DNA from: Hyphomicrobiales bacterium
GTDB taxonomy: Bacteria; Pseudomonadota; Alphaproteobacteria; Rhizobiales; Kaistiaceae
NCBI GenBank assembly: GCA_017305815.1
Contig: JAFKJZ010000449.1
Span: 1 to 10,190 of the forward strand
DNA: 10,190 bases
Direction: 5' to 3'
Shown here one piece after another: positions 2,312 to 10,190 of the stretch; within the stretch, counting starts at the first letter, position 1; each line of letters opens with the position of its first letter. Position numbers and translations under genes: made by a program. Under the pieces are notes generated by a model. It ran no database searches and was not told the origin of the DNA. It worked only from the letters and a program-made list of their open reading frames with translations.

Positions 2312-2353
2312 ATGACCTTTCAGAACTCTGCCATGACGTTCCAGAATTCCGCC
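2312..2353 (+). repeat. 21-bp imperfect tandem duplication at the aminotransferase start
   Basis: Two adjacent 21-bp units (2312-2332 and 2333-2353) each encode MTFQNSA. They differ at four bases, all third codon positions and all synonymous (ACC/ACG, TTT/TTC, AAC/AAT, TCT/TCC). The bases just before the first ATG (ATTCCGCC, 2304-2311) also match the end of the second unit. Both copies carry an ATG, giving two possible start codons. Confidence 0.85.
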
Positions 2354-3622
2354 GATCTCTATGCCCGCGCCACAAGGGTGATCCCGGGCGGGGTCAATTC
2401 CGCCACGCGCCGCCTCGCCCGCCCGATGGCGTGGGAATGGGCCGAGGGCGCCTATATGCGCGACGTCGACGGCAACACCTTCCTCGACTATCACGCCGCC
2501 TTCGGGCCGATCGTGCTCGGCCACAGGCATCCGGGCGTCACCGCCGCCGTGGCCGAGGCGATCGAGGGCCTCGACATGGTCGGCGTCGGCGTCACGGAGC
2601 GCGAGATCCAGCTCGCCGAGAAGGTGGTCGAGCATGTGCCGTCGGCCGAGATGGCGCTCGCCTTCTCGACCGGCTCGGAAGCGACCTACATGGCGGTGCG
2701 CCTGGCGCGCGGCGTCACCGGCCGCACCAAGCTGATCAAGTTCCAGGGCACGTTCCATGGCTGGCACGACTATCTGCTGATGAACGTCATCACCCCGGCC
2801 GAGAAGATCGGCCAGAAGGATCCGGGCTGCGCGGGGCTGCTCGCCGATGCGGTCGAGAACACGCTGATCTGCCGCTTCAACGATCTCGATTCCGTCGAAC
2901 GGACGATCGCCGCCCATCCCGGCGAGATCGCCGCGATCTTCCTCGAGGCCATCCCGCACAATATCGGCTGCGTGCTGCCGACCCAGGCCTTCGTCGAGGG
3001 CCTGCGCCAGATCTGCGATGCGCATGGCATCATCCTGGTGTTCGACGAGGTGATCACCGGCTTTCGCCACGGCCTCGGCGGCTACCAGGCCAAGCTCGGC
3101 GTCACGCCGGACCTCACCACCATGGCGAAGGCGATCGCCAATGGCTATCCCTGCGCCGTGATCGCCGGCCGTCGCGACCTGATGATGCAGTTCTCGACGG
3201 CGCCCGGCGGCAAGGTGTTCGTCGGCGGCACCTACAATGGCCATCCGGTCGGCGCGGCGGCGGCGCTCGCCACCATCGCCGCCATGGAGGACGGCTCGGT
3301 GCACCGGCACCTGTTCGCGCTCGGCGAGCATGCGCGCAGCGGTATCCAGTCGATCGCGGACCGCCTCGGCATCCGGATGACGGTCGGCGGCTATGGCTCG
3401 GTGTTCACGCCCTATTTCATGGACGGGCCGATCGACCGCTACGAGGACCTGCTGCGCAACGACAACGCCAGCGACGTGGCGTTCCGCAGTGCCATGGTCG
3501 ACCAGGGCATCTTCATGCTGCCCATGGCGCTGAAGCGCAATCACATCAGCGCGGCGCATACGCTGGCCGATGTCGAGCGCACCCTCGATATCGCCGAGAC
3601 GGTGCTGAAGACCCTGCGCTAG
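2312..3622 (+). CDS. Class III PLP-dependent aminotransferase, glutamate-1-semialdehyde aminomutase-like
   Basis: The protein has 436 residues, typical of the family. The motifs are complete: VIPGGVNSATRR near the N-terminus as in GSAM-like proteins; GSEAT (121-125) for phosphate binding; TFHGWHD (147-153) with the cofactor-stacking region; FDEVITGFR (244-252) with Asp245; TMAKAIANGYP (270-280) with Lys273 as the Schiff-base lysine; and GGTYNGHP (305-312). It should be a PLP-dependent transaminase or aminomutase. A true heme-pathway HemL is unlikely, because the Lys motif differs from the usual HemL form and the gene sits in an IclR operon. The start is ambiguous. ATG 2312 has only a distant AGGA (2295-2298), and ATG 2333 begins the second copy of a 21-bp tandem repeat, so the protein starts MTFQNSA twice. 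The upstream gene ends 23 bp before, consistent with one operon. Confidence 0.92.
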   Translation: MTFQNSAMTFQNSADLYARATRVIPGGVNSATRRLARPMAWEWAEGAYMRDVDGNTFLDYHAAFGPIVLGHRHPGVTAAVAEAIEGLDMVGVGVTEREIQLAEKVVEHVPSAEMALAFSTGSEATYMAVRLARGVTGRTKLIKFQGTFHGWHDYLLMNVITPAEKIGQKDPGCAGLLADAVENTLICRFNDLDSVERTIAAHPGEIAAIFLEAIPHNIGCVLPTQAFVEGLRQICDAHGIILVFDEVITGFRHGLGGYQAKLGVTPDLTTMAKAIANGYPCAVIAGRRDLMMQFSTAPGGKVFVGGTYNGHPVGAAAALATIAAMEDGSVHRHLFALGEHARSGIQSIADRLGIRMTVGGYGSVFTPYFMDGPIDRYEDLLRNDNASDVAFRSAMVDQGIFMLPMALKRNHISAAHTLADVERTLDIAETVLKTLR

Positions 3623-3638
3623 CCCTGCGCGGGATCTC

Positions 3639-3669
3639 CGGCGCGACGGCTTGGCCGATCGTCGCGCCG
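3639..3669 (+). terminator. Candidate terminator hairpin after the aminotransferase
   Basis: CGGCGCGACG (3639-3648) and CGTCGCGCCG (3660-3669) are perfect 10-bp complementary arms around an 11-nt loop, starting 16 bp after the aminotransferase stop codon. A GC-rich hairpin here fits an end-of-operon terminator or an mRNA 3'-end stabiliser. No T-tract follows (CTTCGGCC), so it is not a textbook intrinsic terminator. Confidence 0.5.
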
Positions 3670-3714
3670 CTTCGGCCGGAACGGTCTTGGCCGCCGGCCA
3701 TCTTCAGGGCAATC

Positions 3715-3800
3715 CCGCCAGACATCGAGATATTGCATCGCAGCAGTAAATGCTGCGATGCATCAAGTCCAGGAATTCGTTCCGTCGATGTCTGCGGAAC
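3715..3800 (+). other. Nested inverted-repeat element, candidate structured RNA (three-way junction)
   Basis: An outer pair, CAGACATCGA (3719-3728) and TCGATGTCTG (3785-3794), is perfectly complementary over 10 bp. It extends by CCG (3715-3717) with CGG (3795-3797) across a one-base bulge. Inside it lie a perfect 12-bp hairpin, TGCATCGCAGCA (3734-3745) with TGCTGCGATGCA (3751-3762) and loop GTAAA, and a smaller hairpin GGAA-TTCG-TTCC (3772-3783). Together they would fold as a three-way junction. GTTCCG (3779-3784) can instead pair with CGGAAC (3795-3800), excluding the outer stem. The element lies 92 bp after the aminotransferase stop and 170-255 bp before the nucleoside hydrolase. I do not recognise a known riboswitch or repeat family. 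It could be a leader RNA, a small RNA, or a palindromic DNA element. Confidence 0.55.
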
Positions 3801-3825
3801 ACTCCGTGTATTTAGTTTGGATCCC

Positions 3826-3851
3826 AAAGTGTAAAGCCGGACTTGCACTTT
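3826..3851 (+). other. Small inverted repeats in the leader region
   Basis: AAAGTGTAA (3826-3834) pairs with TTGCACTTT (3843-3851) over nine positions including one G-U, with an 8-nt loop. It competes with a smaller hairpin, TTTGG-ATC-CCAAA (3816-3828). A further imperfect stem, CGGACGC (3852-3858) with GCGCTCCG (3872-3879), follows. These may be part of a structured leader, or chance pairing; no function can be assigned. Confidence 0.3.
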
Positions 3852-3881
3852 CGGACGCTTCGGGCTTTGCTGCGCTCCGTC

Positions 3882-3910
3882 TTGTCGTTCGCTGGGAATA
3901 TTTCGAAAAT
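3882..3910 (+). promoter_or_regulatory. Candidate promoter of the nucleoside hydrolase-importer operon
   Basis: TTGTCG (3882-3887, four of six -35 matches) and GAAAAT (3905-3910, four of six -10 matches) are separated by 17 bp. A start site near 3917 would place the LacI-type operator just downstream of it, a good position for repression. Both boxes are degenerate, so this is tentative. If true, the nested structure at 3715-3800 lies upstream of the transcript rather than in its leader. Confidence 0.4.
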
Positions 3911-3929
3911 CCCGGCGTTCTGTAGATGC

Positions 3930-3947
3930 TACGCAAACGTTTGCGTA
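3930..3947 (+). promoter_or_regulatory. LacI-family operator, perfect 18-bp palindrome
   Basis: TACGCAAACGTTTGCGTA is a perfect palindrome with a central CG, the classic form of LacI/GalR-family operators; it closely resembles the E. coli PurR consensus (ACGCAAACGTTTnCnT). It ends four bases before the ribosome binding site GGAGGA (3952-3957) of the nucleoside hydrolase gene. The obvious binder is the LacI-family protein encoded at 6344-7345 in the same operon. I saw no second copy of the site in the window. Confidence 0.85.
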
Positions 3948-3969
3948 ACCTGGAGGAGAGAGTCCCAAG

Positions 3970-4905
3970 ATGAATTTTCCTGCCATCGACGAAAGCGTCC
4001 GGGTTGCCCGCCTCGCGCCGCATGTCCGCAAGGCCCGAGTCGTGATCGACACGGATACGTTCAACGAGATCGATGATCAGTTCGCCATCGTCTACGCGCT
4101 TCTTTCCGCGGATCGCATGACGACGGAAGCCATCTATGCGGCTCCCTATTTCAATTCGCGCTCGACCGGCCCCGCCGACGGCATGGAGAAGAGCTACGAG
4201 GAAATCCTCCGCCTGCTCGAGCTGATGGGCCGCCCGGCGGACGGCTTCGTGTTCAAGGGCTCGACCGACTATGTCGGCGCCGGCCTGAAGCCACAGCGCA
4301 ACGCGGCGGTGGAGGACCTGATCGCGCGCGCCATGGCCTCGACCCCGGAGGACCCGCTCTACATCATCGCTCTGGCGGCGATCACCAATGTCGCCTCGGC
4401 CATCATGATCGAGCCGCGCATCATCGACAGGATCGTCGTCTGCTGGCTGGGCGGCCATTCGCTCCAGTGGCCGCATACGCGCGAGTTCAACCTGAAGCAG
4501 GACGTTCCCGGCGCCCGCGTGCTGTTCGACAGCGGCGTGCCGCTGGTGATGTTGCCTTGCGAGGGCGTCGTCTCGACCCTGAGCACCACGATTCCCGAGC
4601 TCGAACGCTATGTCGAGCCGTCGGGTCCGCTCGGCGCCTTCCTCGCCGGCCGCGTCAAGGGCTACGAGGACGAGGACAAGCATATCGGCTGGTCGAAGCC
4701 GATCTGGGACATGGCGCCGGTCGCCTACCTGATCGACGCCAGCTGGACCCCCTCGACGCTGGTGCCGAGCCCGATCCTCACCCCGGAAGTGACGTGGAGC
4801 TTCGACAATTCGCGCCACCTCATCCGCTATGTCCACCGGATCGATCGCGACGCGATCTTCCGCGATTTCTTCGTGAAGCTCGCGGCGTTCGCGAAGTCGA
4901 AATAG
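3970..4905 (+). CDS. Nucleoside hydrolase (inosine/uridine-preferring family), divergent active site
   Basis: The protein has 311 residues, the normal size for the IUNH family, which hydrolyses the N-glycosidic bond of ribonucleosides to free base and ribose using a calcium ion held by N-terminal aspartates. The metal motif is visible as VVIDTDTFNEIDDQFA, with Asp27, Asp29, Asp35 and Asp36. It has a longer spacing than the textbook DTDPGxDD but resembles a recognised branch that carries NE(I/V)DDQFA. AAITNVASA (136-144) matches the LTN segment, EFNLKQD (172-178) the ribose-binding EFN segment, and IWDMAPVAYLI (245-255) the C-terminal D-x-x-A motif. In that last motif the usual preceding His is Trp246, while Asp247 is kept. 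There is no signal peptide, so it is cytoplasmic. GGAGGA at 3952-3957 precedes the ATG. It leads the importer operon behind a LacI-type operator. The exact substrate is unknown. Confidence 0.88.
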   Translation: MNFPAIDESVRVARLAPHVRKARVVIDTDTFNEIDDQFAIVYALLSADRMTTEAIYAAPYFNSRSTGPADGMEKSYEEILRLLELMGRPADGFVFKGSTDYVGAGLKPQRNAAVEDLIARAMASTPEDPLYIIALAAITNVASAIMIEPRIIDRIVVCWLGGHSLQWPHTREFNLKQDVPGARVLFDSGVPLVMLPCEGVVSTLSTTIPELERYVEPSGPLGAFLAGRVKGYEDEDKHIGWSKPIWDMAPVAYLIDASWTPSTLVPSPILTPEVTWSFDNSRHLIRYVHRIDRDAIFRDFFVKLAAFAKSK

Positions 4906-4947
4906 GCCGGCGGACGGCCGCTACGGCCGGAAACAGGTCCTGGAATA

Positions 4948-4967
4948 CCGGCGGAGCGATCCGCCGG
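4948..4967 (+). other. Hairpin with GNRA loop between nucleoside hydrolase and solute-binding protein genes
   Basis: CCGGCGGA (4948-4955) and TCCGCCGG (4960-4967) pair perfectly over 8 bp around a GCGA tetraloop of the stable GNRA type. It lies in the 136-bp gap before the solute-binding protein gene, which also has repeated CGGCCG blocks (4915-4929). There is no T-tract, so a terminator is unlikely. A processing or stability element that raises solute-binding protein levels over its operon neighbours is a plausible role. Confidence 0.45.
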
Positions 4968-5041
4968 CCCACTGTTCGATGCCCGGGCGCTCGATCCAGG
5001 AAAATCGATCGCATCTCCGGGTCTTTTGGGAGGAGACCAAC

Positions 5042-6322
5042 ATGAAGCATCGTTCGCTTACCCTAAGACTGACGGCGGCGATCCTGTTCGCCGGGGCAGC
5101 GACCCTGTCGCTCGCGCCGGCCCAGGCCGAAGACGTCACCATCAACTTCCTGCATGCGCAGAACGAGCGCACCTACGGTCCGGCGATCGAGGCGTTCGAG
5201 AAGGCCAATCCCGGTATCAAGATCCGCCAGCAGATCGTGCCCTTCGACCAGCTGAATGCGCAGATCCAGGCCCGCATCGGCGCCGGCGACGACAGCATCG
5301 ACATCTATGGCGCCGACGAGCCGCGCGTGCCGGCTCTCGCCAAGCGCGGCCTGCTCAAGGACCTGTCGTCGGAGACCGAGAAGGTCACCGCCGCGACGAC
5401 GCCGGAGGCCGTTTCGGCGACCAGCGCCGGCGGCAAGCTCTACGCGCTGCCGCAATGGACCTCGACGCAGCTGCTCTTCTACAACAAAGAACTGCTCGAG
5501 AAGGCCGGCATCGAGCCGCCCTCGGCCGATCCGGCGAAGCGCATGACCTGGGACGAGCTGCTTGCCAATGCCAAGAAGGCGCAGGCGGCCGGCGCCAAGT
5601 ACGGCTTCGGCTTCGAGCAGGTCGACCGCTACTACCAGCTGCAGCCGCTGTTCGAATCGAGCGGCGCGGGCTCGGGCCTGAAGGGCGACGACCTGCTGAC
5701 GCCGGACGTTAACAGCCCCAAATGGGTCGAGACCCTGACCTGGTACGGTGATCTCTACAAGTCGGGCCTGTCGCCGCGCGGCATCCCGGCCGAGCAGATG
5801 TCGCCCCTGTTCCTGAATGGCCAGATCGCCTATTTCGTCGCCGGCCCGTGGAACTTCTACGATTTCGGCAAGTCCGAGAGCCTCAAGTGGGGTATCGCGC
5901 CGCATCCCTATTTCACGGGTGGCAAGCCGGTCACGGCGACGGATTCGTGGGCGGTCGGCATCAGCCCGCACAGCAAGCATCCGGAAGAGGCGCTGAAGTT
6001 CGCCGCCTATACGACGATCGACGACGAGGGCGCGCTGCTGACCACGGCCGCCAACCCGCTGCCGCCGGCCAACAAGGCTGCCTTCGTCAAGAACGTCGAG
6101 GAACAGACCAAGCTCGGCGGTGCTTCGACGGCCCCCTATGGCGACCTGCTCGCCTATGAACTGTCGAAGACCTCGGTCAGCCGTCCGCGCACCATCGGCT
6201 ATGTCGCCTTCGAGGAAGTCATGAACAAGGCGTTCAGCGACGTCCGCAACGGCGCCGACCCGAAGGCGACGCTCGACCGGGCCGAGAAGCAGCTGAAGGC
6301 AACCTTCGGCCGCCTGAAGTAA
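5042..6322 (+). CDS. ABC transporter substrate-binding protein, CUT1 (sugar-type, family 1)
   Basis: The protein has 426 residues from ATG 5042, preceded by a strong GGGAGGAG (5030-5037). The N-terminus is a classic Sec signal peptide: positive MKHRSLTLRLTAA, a hydrophobic core, and an AQA cleavage site after residue 29, giving a mature protein starting EDVTINF. The mature part follows extracellular solute-binding family 1: FLHAQNERTYGPAIEAFEKA at the start, then IQARIGAGDDSIDIYGAD, LYALPQWTSTQLLFYNKELL, MTWDELLANAKKA, FLNGQIAYFVAGPWN, and ATDSWAVGISPHSKHPEEAL. It is periplasmic and delivers the ligand to the two permeases at 7356-9082. The family mostly binds sugars, but the adjacent nucleoside hydrolase suggests a nucleoside or other glycoside. 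An upstream in-frame ATG at 4979 would add 21 residues before the signal peptide and is not credible. The LacI gene begins 21 bp downstream. Confidence 0.93.
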   Translation: MKHRSLTLRLTAAILFAGAATLSLAPAQAEDVTINFLHAQNERTYGPAIEAFEKANPGIKIRQQIVPFDQLNAQIQARIGAGDDSIDIYGADEPRVPALAKRGLLKDLSSETEKVTAATTPEAVSATSAGGKLYALPQWTSTQLLFYNKELLEKAGIEPPSADPAKRMTWDELLANAKKAQAAGAKYGFGFEQVDRYYQLQPLFESSGAGSGLKGDDLLTPDVNSPKWVETLTWYGDLYKSGLSPRGIPAEQMSPLFLNGQIAYFVAGPWNFYDFGKSESLKWGIAPHPYFTGGKPVTATDSWAVGISPHSKHPEEALKFAAYTTIDDEGALLTTAANPLPPANKAAFVKNVEEQTKLGGASTAPYGDLLAYELSKTSVSRPRTIGYVAFEEVMNKAFSDVRNGADPKATLDRAEKQLKATFGRLK

Positions 6323-6343
6323 GCCGGCGCCAGAGGGGGAGGG

Positions 6344-7345
6344 ATGCCCTTGGCCACCATCAAGGACATCGCTCTCGCCCTCGGCATCGCGCCTTCGACG
6401 GTTTCGCGCGGCCTGAACGGGCAGCCTGGACTGTCGGAGGAGGTCCGGCAGAGGATCGTCGAGACGGCGGCGCGCGTCGGTTACCGCCCCAGCGGGATCG
6501 CGCGCGCGCTGCGCAGCAAGACGACCCGGACGATCGGCCTGATCGTTCCGAGCATTCTCAATCCCTTCTTCACCGACCTGGCCTACGCGGTCGAGCTGGC
6601 GGCGCGCGCCAGGGGCTTCAGCGTCATCGTCGGCAATTCCGACGAGGAGCCGAGCCACGAGACCGAATATCTGCGGATCATGATCGAGCGCGGCGTGGAC
6701 GGGTTGCTGGTTGCGCCCAGCCGCGATCGCAACGCGATGCTGACAGAGCTGCATGAGGGTGGAACGCCGATGATCTTCCTGGACCGCAAGGTTCCGGGGC
6801 TCGACGTGCCGACCGTCGACGTCGATCCCGAGCCGGCGATCCGCGCGCTGGCCCGGCGGATGGCGGGGCTCGGCTTTCGCCGCGTCGGCATCGTGCGCGG
6901 GCCGGACGGCGTTGGCGTGGCGCGGGAGCGCACGGCGCGGATGGTGCGGGCCGGCGAGGCGAGCGGGCTTGTCTTCGAGCCGCGGCACCAGTTCGCCGGC
7001 AATTTCACGGTCGACGGCGGCAAGGCTGCCTTCGCCGCCCTGAGCCAGGACATGCCCGATGCGATCTTTCTTACCAACAACCTGATGACGCAGGGTTTTC
7101 TGCTGGCCGCTGCCGAGGCGGGCACCGGCGTCGGCCGGGAGATCGCCATCGCGACCTTCGACGATGTGCCGCTGTTTCAGCTCTACAACCCGCCGATCAC
7201 GGCGATCGTCCAGCCGACCCGCCGGATGGGCGAGATGGCGGTCGACATGCTGCTGAGACGCATTGCCGGCGAGCGGGTCTCGTCGGCCCGCCTCGCAGCG
7301 GATGTGGTTTTCCGCGCTTCGTTCAGCGAAGCGCGCCCCTTCTGA
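6344..7345 (+). CDS. LacI-family transcriptional repressor
   Basis: The protein has 333 residues. The N-terminal helix-turn-helix is ATIKDIALALGIAPSTVSR (4-22), with PSTVSR as recognition helix, followed by GYRPSGIARALRSK (46-59), the hinge helix with the minor-groove leucine (Leu56). Residues 62-330 form a periplasmic-binding-protein-like effector domain (TRTIGLIVPSILNPFFTDLA, then RGVDGLLVAPS, FDDVPLF and PPITAIVQP). It should bind a sugar-like or nucleoside inducer and repress from the operator at 3930-3947. The start is uncertain. ATG 6344 touches the purine-rich GAGGGGGAGGG (6333-6343), whereas TTG 6350 would give MATIKDIA, the commonest start for the family, with GGAGG (6338-6342) at ideal spacing. 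The gene sits between the solute-binding protein (21 bp before) and the permeases (10 bp after), so the repressor is probably made from the operon it controls. Confidence 0.93.
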   Translation: MPLATIKDIALALGIAPSTVSRGLNGQPGLSEEVRQRIVETAARVGYRPSGIARALRSKTTRTIGLIVPSILNPFFTDLAYAVELAARARGFSVIVGNSDEEPSHETEYLRIMIERGVDGLLVAPSRDRNAMLTELHEGGTPMIFLDRKVPGLDVPTVDVDPEPAIRALARRMAGLGFRRVGIVRGPDGVGVARERTARMVRAGEASGLVFEPRHQFAGNFTVDGGKAAFAALSQDMPDAIFLTNNLMTQGFLLAAAEAGTGVGREIAIATFDDVPLFQLYNPPITAIVQPTRRMGEMAVDMLLRRIAGERVSSARLAADVVFRASFSEARPF

Positions 7346-7355
7346 GGACGATTGG

Positions 7356-8240
7356 ATGACGCGCGTTCGACAAAGCCGGTTTGCATGGATCGGTCACAAC
7401 GAGGCCCTGGTAGGCCTGCTCATGCTGTGTCCGGTCTTCATCGCGCTGATCGTGCTGCGGCTCTGGCCGGCCGGGATCGCGCTGGTCCATTCGCTGACCT
7501 CCGACGAGCCGGGTGGCGGCTTCGACCTCGCCACCTACTCCTATCTGTTCCAGGACCCGACCTTCCTGAACTCGCTGTTCCGTACGGCCATCTTCTCGAT
7601 TGTCATCAACCCGCTGCAGATCCTGCTCGCCCTGGCGATGGCGCTGCTGATGAACCAGAAGATGAAACTCGACGGCGTCTGGCGGACGCTGATCCTGCTG
7701 CCGGTCGTCATCCCGCAGAGCATCTCGGCGATCATCTGGGGCGTCGCGCTCCGGCCCGACGGGCCGATCAACGCCGTGCTGGTGTCGCTCGGCCTGCCGG
7801 AGCAGGGCTTCCTCACCTCGACGACCCAGGCGATGCCGAGCCTGATGGTGGTGGTGAGCTGGGTCGGCTGCGGCTACTGGATGACGTTCCTGCTCGCCGG
7901 TCTGAAGGACATTCCGGTCTCGCTCTACGAGGCCGCCCGGCTCGACGGCGCCAATCGCCGGCAGCAGCTCTGGAACATCACGCTGCCGATGCTGCGCCGG
8001 CCGCTCCTGTTCGTGCTCGTCGCCGACACCGTCGCGAACTTTCTCGTCTTCGCGCCGGTGCAGATCCTGACCGGCGGCGGGCCGGAGGAAACCACCAATC
8101 TGATCATGTCCGAGATCTACACGCGAACCTTCGTCTATGGCGACGACAAGGGTGGCGCCGCCGCGACGGTCATCCTCGTCGCGGTAGTGCTCGTCGTCGT
8201 GCTGATCCAGTTCCGAATGATGCGGGGGAGGGGCGCGTGA
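7356..8240 (+). CDS. ABC transporter permease, CUT1 family (MalF/UgpA-type)
   Basis: The protein has 294 residues from ATG 7356, with GAGGA (7344-7348) seven bases upstream and overlapping the LacI stop. Six hydrophobic segments are visible at about 18-40, 74-98, 108-131, 160-182, 215-238 and 266-286. The cytoplasmic EAA loop, YEAARLDGANRRQQLWNITL (191-210) followed by PML, contacts the ATPase. The later ILTGGGPEETTNL (237-249) is typical of the MalF-like partner. It forms the inner-membrane channel together with the next permease. An upstream in-frame ATG at 7263 lies deep inside the LacI gene and has no supporting site. The stop codon overlaps the next start by one base (TGATG), indicating translational coupling. 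The ligand is set by the binding protein, not by this subunit. Confidence 0.93.
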   Translation: MTRVRQSRFAWIGHNEALVGLLMLCPVFIALIVLRLWPAGIALVHSLTSDEPGGGFDLATYSYLFQDPTFLNSLFRTAIFSIVINPLQILLALAMALLMNQKMKLDGVWRTLILLPVVIPQSISAIIWGVALRPDGPINAVLVSLGLPEQGFLTSTTQAMPSLMVVVSWVGCGYWMTFLLAGLKDIPVSLYEAARLDGANRRQQLWNITLPMLRRPLLFVLVADTVANFLVFAPVQILTGGGPEETTNLIMSEIYTRTFVYGDDKGGAAATVILVAVVLVVVLIQFRMMRGRGA

Positions 8241-9082
8241 TGACCCAGGCCGATACCGTGAAGTCGTCGCGTTTCGCGCTTTTCGGCGCCGTGCTGGTGG
8301 CGGCGCTGTCGATGGCGCCGCTCTACTGGGCGCTGATCTCGTCGCTCCGGCCGAGCGAGGACATCTTCCGCTACATCTCTGAGGTCAGCCTCTGGATGTT
8401 CGTGCCGAACCGGATCACCTTCGACAACCTCATCAATGTCTGGAGCGGCCCCTTCGCCCGGGCGATGATGAATTCCGTCATCGTCACGCTGGCGACGATC
8501 GTGCTCGGGCTCGTCATGTGCTCGATGGCGGCCTTCGCGCTGGCGCGGCTCGAAATTCCCGGCAAGCGGGCGATCTTCTCGATCGTCATCGTCAGTTTCC
8601 TGGTGCCGTTCGACGCAATCGCGGTGCCCCTGCTCAGCCTGTTCCGCAGCTTCGGCATGCAGAACACCTATCTCGGCATCATCCTGCCCGGCATCGGCAA
8701 CGGCTTCGCCGTGTTCATGCTGCGGCAGTTCTTCCTCGGCATCCCGAAGGAGCTTTCCGACGCGGCGCGGGTCGACGGACTCGGCTGGTGGGGCATCTTC
8801 ACCCGCATCTACCTGCCGCTTTCCAAGCCGGCGCTTATCTCGGCCGGCCTGATCCTGTTCGTGTTCCAGTGGCAGGCCTTCCTCTGGCCGCTGCTGATCG
8901 CTCCGGATCCCGACTACAAGGTCGCCGCCGTCGCCATCGCCGATTTCGCCGGTCAGTTTTCAACCGATTTCGGCTCGATGTTCGCGGCCGCCGTGGTCGT
9001 CTCCGTCGTGCCGCTGGTGATCCTGCTGGTCTTCCAGCGCTATTTCACGGCCTCGGTCGCCTCGAGCGGCAGCAAGGAATAG
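8240..9082 (+). CDS. ABC transporter permease, CUT1 family (MalG/UgpE-type)
   Basis: The protein has 280 residues. The start ATG 8240 follows GGAGGGG (8227-8233) at six bases; GTG 8237, one codon earlier, is less likely. Hydrophobic segments lie at about 12-35, 76-102, 111-134, 144-165, 197-220 and 245-267. FALARLEIPGKR (99-110) and the EAA loop ELSDAARVDGLGWWGIFTRI (171-190) followed by YLPLSKPAL are the usual MalG-like signatures. It pairs with the preceding permease and is the last plus-strand gene of the operon. No ATP-binding subunit (Walker A, LSGGQ) follows: the next gene is convergent and unrelated. The complex therefore needs an ATPase from another locus, as happens for several CUT1 importers that share one ATPase. 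Confidence 0.93.
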   Translation: MTQADTVKSSRFALFGAVLVAALSMAPLYWALISSLRPSEDIFRYISEVSLWMFVPNRITFDNLINVWSGPFARAMMNSVIVTLATIVLGLVMCSMAAFALARLEIPGKRAIFSIVIVSFLVPFDAIAVPLLSLFRSFGMQNTYLGIILPGIGNGFAVFMLRQFFLGIPKELSDAARVDGLGWWGIFTRIYLPLSKPALISAGLILFVFQWQAFLWPLLIAPDPDYKVAAVAIADFAGQFSTDFGSMFAAAVVVSVVPLVILLVFQRYFTASVASSGSKE

Positions 9083-9143: not shown

Positions 9144-9740
9144 TCAGACGGCGCGGGACATCGTTGCCCGGCCGCTGGTCAAGTCGGCGACCATCTGGCG
9201 GATCTCCTCGACCCTGTCCTCGTGGATCGCTGCGACGAGTTCGCCGCCTGTAGCCGTGTAGGCCTGCGTCAGCACCTGCGCCGCCGGATGGGCAGCAAGC
9301 CGCGTCTGCAGCAGCGCCAGATCGCCGAAGCCGCAGGCAATCGTCGCCTCGCGGGTGCGGATGATCGGCACCTTCGCCGCGGCGCGCAGGCAGGTTGCCG
9401 CCGTGCCGCCATAGGCGCGGATCAGGCCGCCGCCGCCGAGCAGGATGCCGCCGAACCAGCGGGTGACGACGACCGCGACGCCGTCGAGCGACTGTCCCTC
9501 GATCGCCTGCAGGATCGGTTTCCCGGCGGTGCTGCTCGGCTCGCCGTCATCGCTGAAGCGATAGCTCTGGCCGATCTTCCACGCCCAGCAATTATGGTTC
9601 GCGGCCGGGTCGGAATGAGCGGCGATGAATTCCTTCGCCGCGGCCTCCGACGAGACGGGGCCGGCCGCCGCGATGAAGCGGCTCTTGCGGATTTCCTGCC
9701 GGAAGGTTTCCGTCCCTTCAAGGGTGAACATCGTCGTCAT
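9144..9740 (-). CDS. yigZ: YigZ/IMPACT family protein (UPF0029)
   Basis: The protein has 198 residues, close to the usual 200 or so for bacterial YigZ. The IMPACT domain (about 10-115) carries the family signature: EIRKSRFIA near the start, NHNCWAWKIG (48-57), YRFSDDGEPSSTAGKPIL (60-77), and VVVTRWFGGILLGGGGLI (90-107) followed by RAYGGTA. Residues about 125-190 correspond to the C-terminal DUF1949-like domain. The eukaryotic relative IMPACT regulates the kinase GCN2; the bacterial role is poorly defined, so I give no reaction. The start ATG 9740 is preceded by GGAAAG at a reasonable distance. A second in-frame ATG at 9731 would shorten it by three residues. The open frame runs on upstream to 10061, but that part overlaps the kinase gene antisense-free in another frame and lacks family similarity. 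It converges on the importer operon and is downstream of the kinase remnant. Confidence 0.9.
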   Translation of the reverse strand: MTTMFTLEGTETFRQEIRKSRFIAAAGPVSSEAAAKEFIAAHSDPAANHNCWAWKIGQSYRFSDDGEPSSTAGKPILQAIEGQSLDGVAVVVTRWFGGILLGGGGLIRAYGGTAATCLRAAAKVPIIRTREATIACGFGDLALLQTRLAAHPAAQVLTQAYTATGGELVAAIHEDRVEEIRQMVADLTSGRATMSRAV

Positions 9741-9817
9741 GGTCGTCTTTCCAGCCGCGCGCGCTCTTCCATGCGCGGTGTGGCGCCGGCGATCAAGCTG
9801 CTGCCGCCCGCTTCGCG

Positions 9818-10190
9818 TCAGGAACGGGGAAGGATGAAGGCGACCTGCAGGCCGGTTCCGTCCGTCCGGTTGCTGAGTTCGAGCCCGACGCCCAGGCGCT
9901 GGGCGGCGATCGCGACGATGGTGAGGCCCAGCCCGGTTCCGGAGGGGCTCCGGTTGCGGCCGCGATAGAAGCGCTGCGTGACGAGATCGAGTTCCTCGTC
10001 CGGAATGCCGGGCCCCTGGTCGGCGATCAGGATGCCGGTCGCGCCCGGCATGGGCCGCCACGACACGACGCCCTCCTCCGGCATGTGCTGGATGGCGTTT
10101 TCGTGCACGGTGCGGAGCGCCAGCATCCAGGGCTAGCGCGGGCCGGGCAGGCGGATCTCGGCGAGCGCCGGGTCGATGTCGACACGGATG
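9818..10190 (-). pseudogene. Sensor histidine kinase, C-terminal ATPase part, in-frame amber stop; 5' end outside window
   Basis: Read from the right edge, the frame encodes a segment ending EIRLPGPR, then TAG (complement of 10133-10135), then PW and MLALRTVHENAIQHMPEEG. After the stop, the HATPase_c domain looks complete: N-box HENAIQH, G1 box IADQGPGIPDEEL, F-box RFYRG, G2 box GTGLGLTIV, and a normal C-terminal end at TGA 9818-9820. The stop breaks no spacing: similarity to a kinase continues on both sides in the same frame, so a point substitution (for example from CAG or TGG) is the simplest explanation. A 102-residue remnant could start at ATG 10126, but it would lack the upstream half of the domain and the phosphorylated histidine. 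A sequencing error is the main alternative. Any response-regulator partner would be beyond the right edge. Confidence 0.75.

Follow-up and report, generated by a model that had tools for sequence, protein, structure and literature searches.

We put at about even the chances that the nested palindrome in the 347-bp spacer between an aminotransferase gene and a nucleoside hydrolase gene of a Kaistia bacterium is a single-copy, lineage-specific palindromic element located between two transcription units; the window, that is, the whole 10,190-nucleotide stretch of DNA analysed here, covers the spacer and both neighbouring gene blocks. The element would have come with, or arisen at, the joint of these blocks. 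The fold is real and improbable but the element is an orphan, more readily seen as a stray palindromic spacer than as a new regulatory RNA. As it stands, the element is of little significance, and it illustrates that a striking, improbable fold can belong to an orphan palindrome devoid of comparative support. The original prediction had offered three functional readings, namely a cis-regulatory RNA of the hydrolase/importer operon, a small RNA or a palindromic repeat; this functional interpretation is mostly unsupported and only partly supported by the results described below.

Architecture and predicted fold of the element

The arms of the element were read directly from the sequence (Table 1), and the 10-bp outer repeat, the 12-bp inner repeat and the GGAA-TTCG-TTCC hairpin are all located where they had been predicted. 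The three-way junction proposed along with them is recovered by the predicted fold of 3715-3797 (minimum free energy of -43.6 kcal/mol and z of -8.16; none of the 200 shuffled sequences did as well), which adds three pairs, 3729-3731 with 3767-3769, beneath the 12-bp hairpin. For the segment 3705-3805, the minimum free energies are -45.4 kcal/mol for the plus strand and -48.7 kcal/mol for the minus strand (z of -6.37 and -6.60 against shuffles, respectively). Because a stable fold is predicted for either strand, with a small advantage for the minus strand, the fold itself is no pointer to a sense RNA; the UUCG loop is found on the plus strand. The ends of the element are CCGC and CGG.

Table 1. 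Features of the spacer and of the adjacent genes (coordinates within the window)
Feature	Coordinates	Strand	Remarks
Class III aminotransferase gene	2312..3622	+	Last gene of the IclR-amidohydrolase-aminotransferase block
Perfect 10-bp GC-rich hairpin	3639..3669	+	Separate from the element; 16 nt 3' of the aminotransferase stop; no T run
Nested palindromic element, predicted three-way junction	3715..3797	either	Arms read directly, fold computed
Outer stem, left arm CAGACATCGA	3719..3728		CCG 3715-3717 adds to the stem; one C of 3718-3719 bulged
Perfect 12-bp inner hairpin	3734..3762		5-nt loop
4-bp hairpin GGAA-TTCG-TTCC	3772..3783		
Outer stem, right arm TCGATGTCTG	3785..3794		CGG 3795-3797 adds to the stem
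Weak terminator-like hairpin, tail TATTTAGTTT	3793..3808	+	Overlaps the right arm of the outer stem; 0.4 expected by chance (shuffle mean)
18-bp perfect palindrome TACGCAAACGTTTGCGTA	3930..3947		Putative LacI-type operator
IU_nuc_hydro nucleoside hydrolase gene	3970..4905	+	First gene of the importer block

The suggestion that two nested perfect stems are unlikely to occur by chance was borne out: a perfect nested 12+10 pair is absent from 26.42 Mb of order-1 simulated sequence modelled on the intergenic region, and the z-scores of the fold range from -6.4 to -8.2. Under laxer thresholds (inner stem of at least 10 bp, outer stem of at least 8 bp), a nested pair was found once in 578,478 simulated bases and not at all in a 192,826-base sample of real DNA, taken from the same genome and seven congeners and chosen around earlier matches rather than at random. 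The same real bases contain three perfect hairpins of at least 12 bp and, with the GC content regressed out, 9 of 19,134 real 101-nt windows, corresponding to four or five sites, including one within a multicopy repeat, are as stable as the element or more so. Thus, strongly folding segments as such are not rare in the genus. Very stable palindromic segments were also observed in congeners at L141:4261-4361 and L147:15001-15101 (arms GGGTGAGGG / CCCTCACCC).

The surrounding region had been described as less GC-rich than the genes, which holds for 3715-3969 only and does not apply to 3623-3714, where the GC fraction is 0.73 (0.53 for the element, 0.57 for the complete 347-bp intergenic region and 0.67 for the whole window). 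Among the eight segments of the window, the spacer is the only one that lacks a Kaistia-like composition, although it is short and non-coding.

The spacer as a probable joint between two gene blocks

The proteins encoded in the left-hand block (IclR regulator, amidohydrolase and aminotransferase) are 82-93% identical to those of the congeners G003, G010 and G012, and the aminotransferase, at 92-93% identity to three congeners, identifies the nearest among the congeners compared. The DNA similarity to G003 and G010 stops at the aminotransferase stop codon, at 3622, which gives the spacer the appearance of a lineage-specific joint. On inspection by eye, the DNA 3' of the stop codon is unlike that of all five congeners examined, and G003 and G012 are alike in this region, with G010 being of other sequence. 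The right-hand block (3970-9082) consists of genes for a nucleoside hydrolase, a solute-binding protein, a LacI regulator and two permeases, in this order. For the hydrolase, the binding protein and the permeases, identity amounts to 72-84% with three loci from Burkholderiales (L034 and the Pararobbsia loci L035 and L085) and to 50-64% with the best loci of the congeners G013 and G011; despite the closer Burkholderiales proteins, the composition of the block is Kaistia-like.

A chimeric contig was considered and rejected, given the 92-93% identity of the aminotransferase to congeners, the Kaistia-like composition of the hydrolase block, and the YigZ protein, for which the nearest named relative, among the best 120 of 3,756 matches, is from Kaistia sp. 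32K (79%). The YigZ/IMPACT family protein (UPF0029, DUF1949) is encoded at 9144-10126 on the minus strand, and the open frame adjoining its gene resembles, by eye, the end of a sensor kinase.

Apart from the element, the spacer contains a hairpin at 3639-3669 that, even without a T run, is likely to be the transcript-end hairpin of the aminotransferase gene. This location would place the nested element beyond the likely end of the aminotransferase transcript. The two structures have in common the spacer and a perfect GC-rich stem; the 3' hairpin, however, is located immediately 3' of the stop codon and has counterparts in two of the five congeners, whereas the nested element has none. A strong hairpin directly 3' of the aminotransferase stop is present in three of the six species (the window, G010 and G005), and none was detected at this position in G003, G012 and G011; the latter half of the species was counted against the reading of the element as a solitary spacer palindrome. 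So was the perfection of the 12- and 10-bp arms, which should decay in neutral DNA, implying that the element arose recently or is being maintained. Its position between the aminotransferase 3' hairpin and the operator that precedes the hydrolase gene was counted in favor. If active at all, the element would function as a stem-loop barrier, either in RNA, where it would form a 3' end of the aminotransferase transcript or block its read-through, or as a DNA hairpin, and would not be a ligand- or sRNA-responsive switch. No T run was found after the 12-bp stem or the outer stem; hence intrinsic termination by the element is not indicated.

Copies, relatives and known palindromic repeats

Only one copy of the element was found in its own genome (a draft that is 92% complete, in 719 contigs), by DNA, hairpin-core pattern and covariance model alike, so that, for the assembled genome, the notion of a palindromic repeat present in many copies is refuted. 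The covariance model, which was built from the single sequence of the element, retrieved only this sequence at E<=0.01; the next best match in the same genome had an E value of 1.35, and weaker matches at E 1.8-3.2 were obtained among 29 loci. The element had not been recognised as a known riboswitch class, and an Rfam scan of the whole window produced 0 matches at E<=1.

A comparison with related genomes had been proposed as a check, and the DNA searches found no homologue of the element in them. There was no match in 60 relatives; nor was the element found in 13 congeners, five of which yielded short matches that all fall at 3633-3708, outside the element, or in 19 genomes with related hydrolases, where the single 25-bp match is again outside. 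These groups overlap with each other and with the order and phylum samples. The covariance-model search of 296 other genomes of the order gave no match under stricter filters that may miss weak relatives. The DNA searches, in which at most two candidates were scored per genome so that weak relatives may likewise be missed, gave no match in 397 other genomes of the phylum and one in 396 other genomes of the order (G086, 35 bp, 86%); this match was rejected as a relative, being, by eye, a hairpin rich in GCAGC that lacks the outer stem.

The searches of plasmids and phages turned up short matches in one plasmid record and three phage records, all of them outside the element. In viral contigs, both two-arm patterns gave 0 matches, the exact hairpin core was found in 2 and the exact right arm in 12; in the segments of up to about 170 bases cut out of these 14 contigs, the left outer arm is absent throughout and, by eye, the outer stem is never formed. 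These pieces were put down to chance. In one of the viral contigs (L156), the core is surrounded by a longer imperfect hairpin of other sequence, inside a 661-codon open frame.

Somewhat tentatively, the element might be viewed as what is left of a small mobile palindrome of the REP dimer, RIME or MITE type, or as an isolated copy of one, with sister copies in unsampled genomes. A multicopy nested palindrome of similar size is indeed abundant in the genus: the 93-base repeat at L147:15156-15248, which has a CGTC end, shows at least 30 matches in the genome that carries the element and is matched in at least 10 of the 14 genus genomes, this one included, with no more than 40 candidates from the first look scored in each genome. 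Read by eye as a dimer, it agrees with the CGTC dimers described in the literature (PMC3733652). In that source, the CGTC-tagged REPs of alphaproteobacteria are multicopy, have a CGTC end and 8-9 bp stems, are located mostly downstream of genes, and form dimers that may adopt one large fold (PMC3733652). Such dimers and the element are both intergenic palindromes able to fold as a single nested structure, but the dimers, as described there, are multicopy, whereas the element is single-copy, differs in sequence and has a 12-bp inner stem that exceeds the 8-9 bp (PMC3733652). Compared with the features of CGTC REPs, the element is not multicopy in the draft genome and has neither an unpaired CGTC-type end nor an 8-9 bp stem. 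A CGTC is present at 3783-3786, in line with a mobile origin, but it is internal and mostly within stems; furthermore, no second copy was detected in the genome by sequence or model, and no target-site duplication was seen by eye in the flanks of both possible ends.

The order Hyphomicrobiales includes Sinorhizobium along with Kaistia. The RIME and A/B/C palindromes of rhizobia are intergenic, of unknown function and occur in dozens, and in Sinorhizobium meliloti, 56% of the 186 predicted sRNA loci lie in spacers with a repetitive element (PMC2573895). The element resembles these palindromes in being intergenic and belonging to Hyphomicrobiales; compared by description, however, they are present in dozens (PMC2573895), whereas the element has no copy in the order samples. 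The element is similar to the CGTC and rhizobial repeats in layout and dissimilar in copy number and, with respect to the CGTC type, also in sequence and ends. A literature search returned no mention of Kaistia, which is no gauge of what is in print.

Candidate RNAs and operators upstream of the nucleoside hydrolase operon

A lineage-specific small RNA or another riboregulator is possible but unlikely. What speaks for a small RNA is the predicted fold (z -8.16) with the UUCG loop on the plus strand; the hairpin at 3793-3808, which carries a T-rich tail, could be added as a weak terminator, but it is in competition with the outer stem, and its pair probability is 0.06. Moreover, a search restricted to the sigma-70 type found no such promoter in 3560-4010, the fold of 3705-3805 is slightly more stable on the minus strand, and no relatives were found in the genomes searched. 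We consider it quite unlikely that the element represents an as yet undescribed small RNA or 3'-derived RNA with a three-way junction that is confined to one Kaistia lineage and was born at the gene-block joint; were the element transcribed and to have a function, it would exemplify the emergence of a structured RNA at a newly formed operon joint.

A role in the nucleoside hydrolase/importer operon, as its cis-regulatory leader or as an attenuator, is disfavored and, in our assessment, very improbable. The element is upstream of the operon, on the same strand, and the CGG of its outer stem can instead pair in the terminator-like hairpin; the attenuator was nevertheless rejected, given that the pair probability of this alternative hairpin is 0.06. 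The element is separated from the hydrolase start codon by 172 nt, and the palindrome that intervenes, 132 bp downstream of the element and 22 bp before the start codon, has a core, GCAAACGTTTGC, that we take to be LacI-type. With one mismatch, this core recurs ahead of the matched hydrolase start in the three nearest operons, at a distance of 36 bases in L085, 40 in L034 and 93 in L035; none of these operons contains a perfect hairpin of at least 10 bp within 400 bases upstream of the hydrolase gene. In the comparison of 81 loci, with the window not counted and L046 left out for want of upstream sequence, the core is present with up to three mismatches in seven, and perfect hairpins of at least 10 bp, of other sequence, occur within 400 upstream bases in three (L047, L059 and L090). 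Because the nearest operons have the operator in common but not the nested hairpin, a leader RNA is unlikely; and since transcription probably starts near the operator, the hairpin would be outside the hydrolase operon mRNA.

The least plausible possibility is that the element is a DNA operator for a protein, with no action as RNA: the dyads are perfect and the window encodes an IclR and a LacI regulator, but the arms are 5 and 56 bp apart, which, as generally known, is not the usual dyad spacing, and the hairpin core is found nowhere else in the genome. The shared LacI-type operator is a more useful regulatory lead than the hairpin. The LacI protein of the window has no match at E<=1e-15 in the DNA examined around L034, L035 and L085. 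Its gene is placed between the binding-protein and permease genes.
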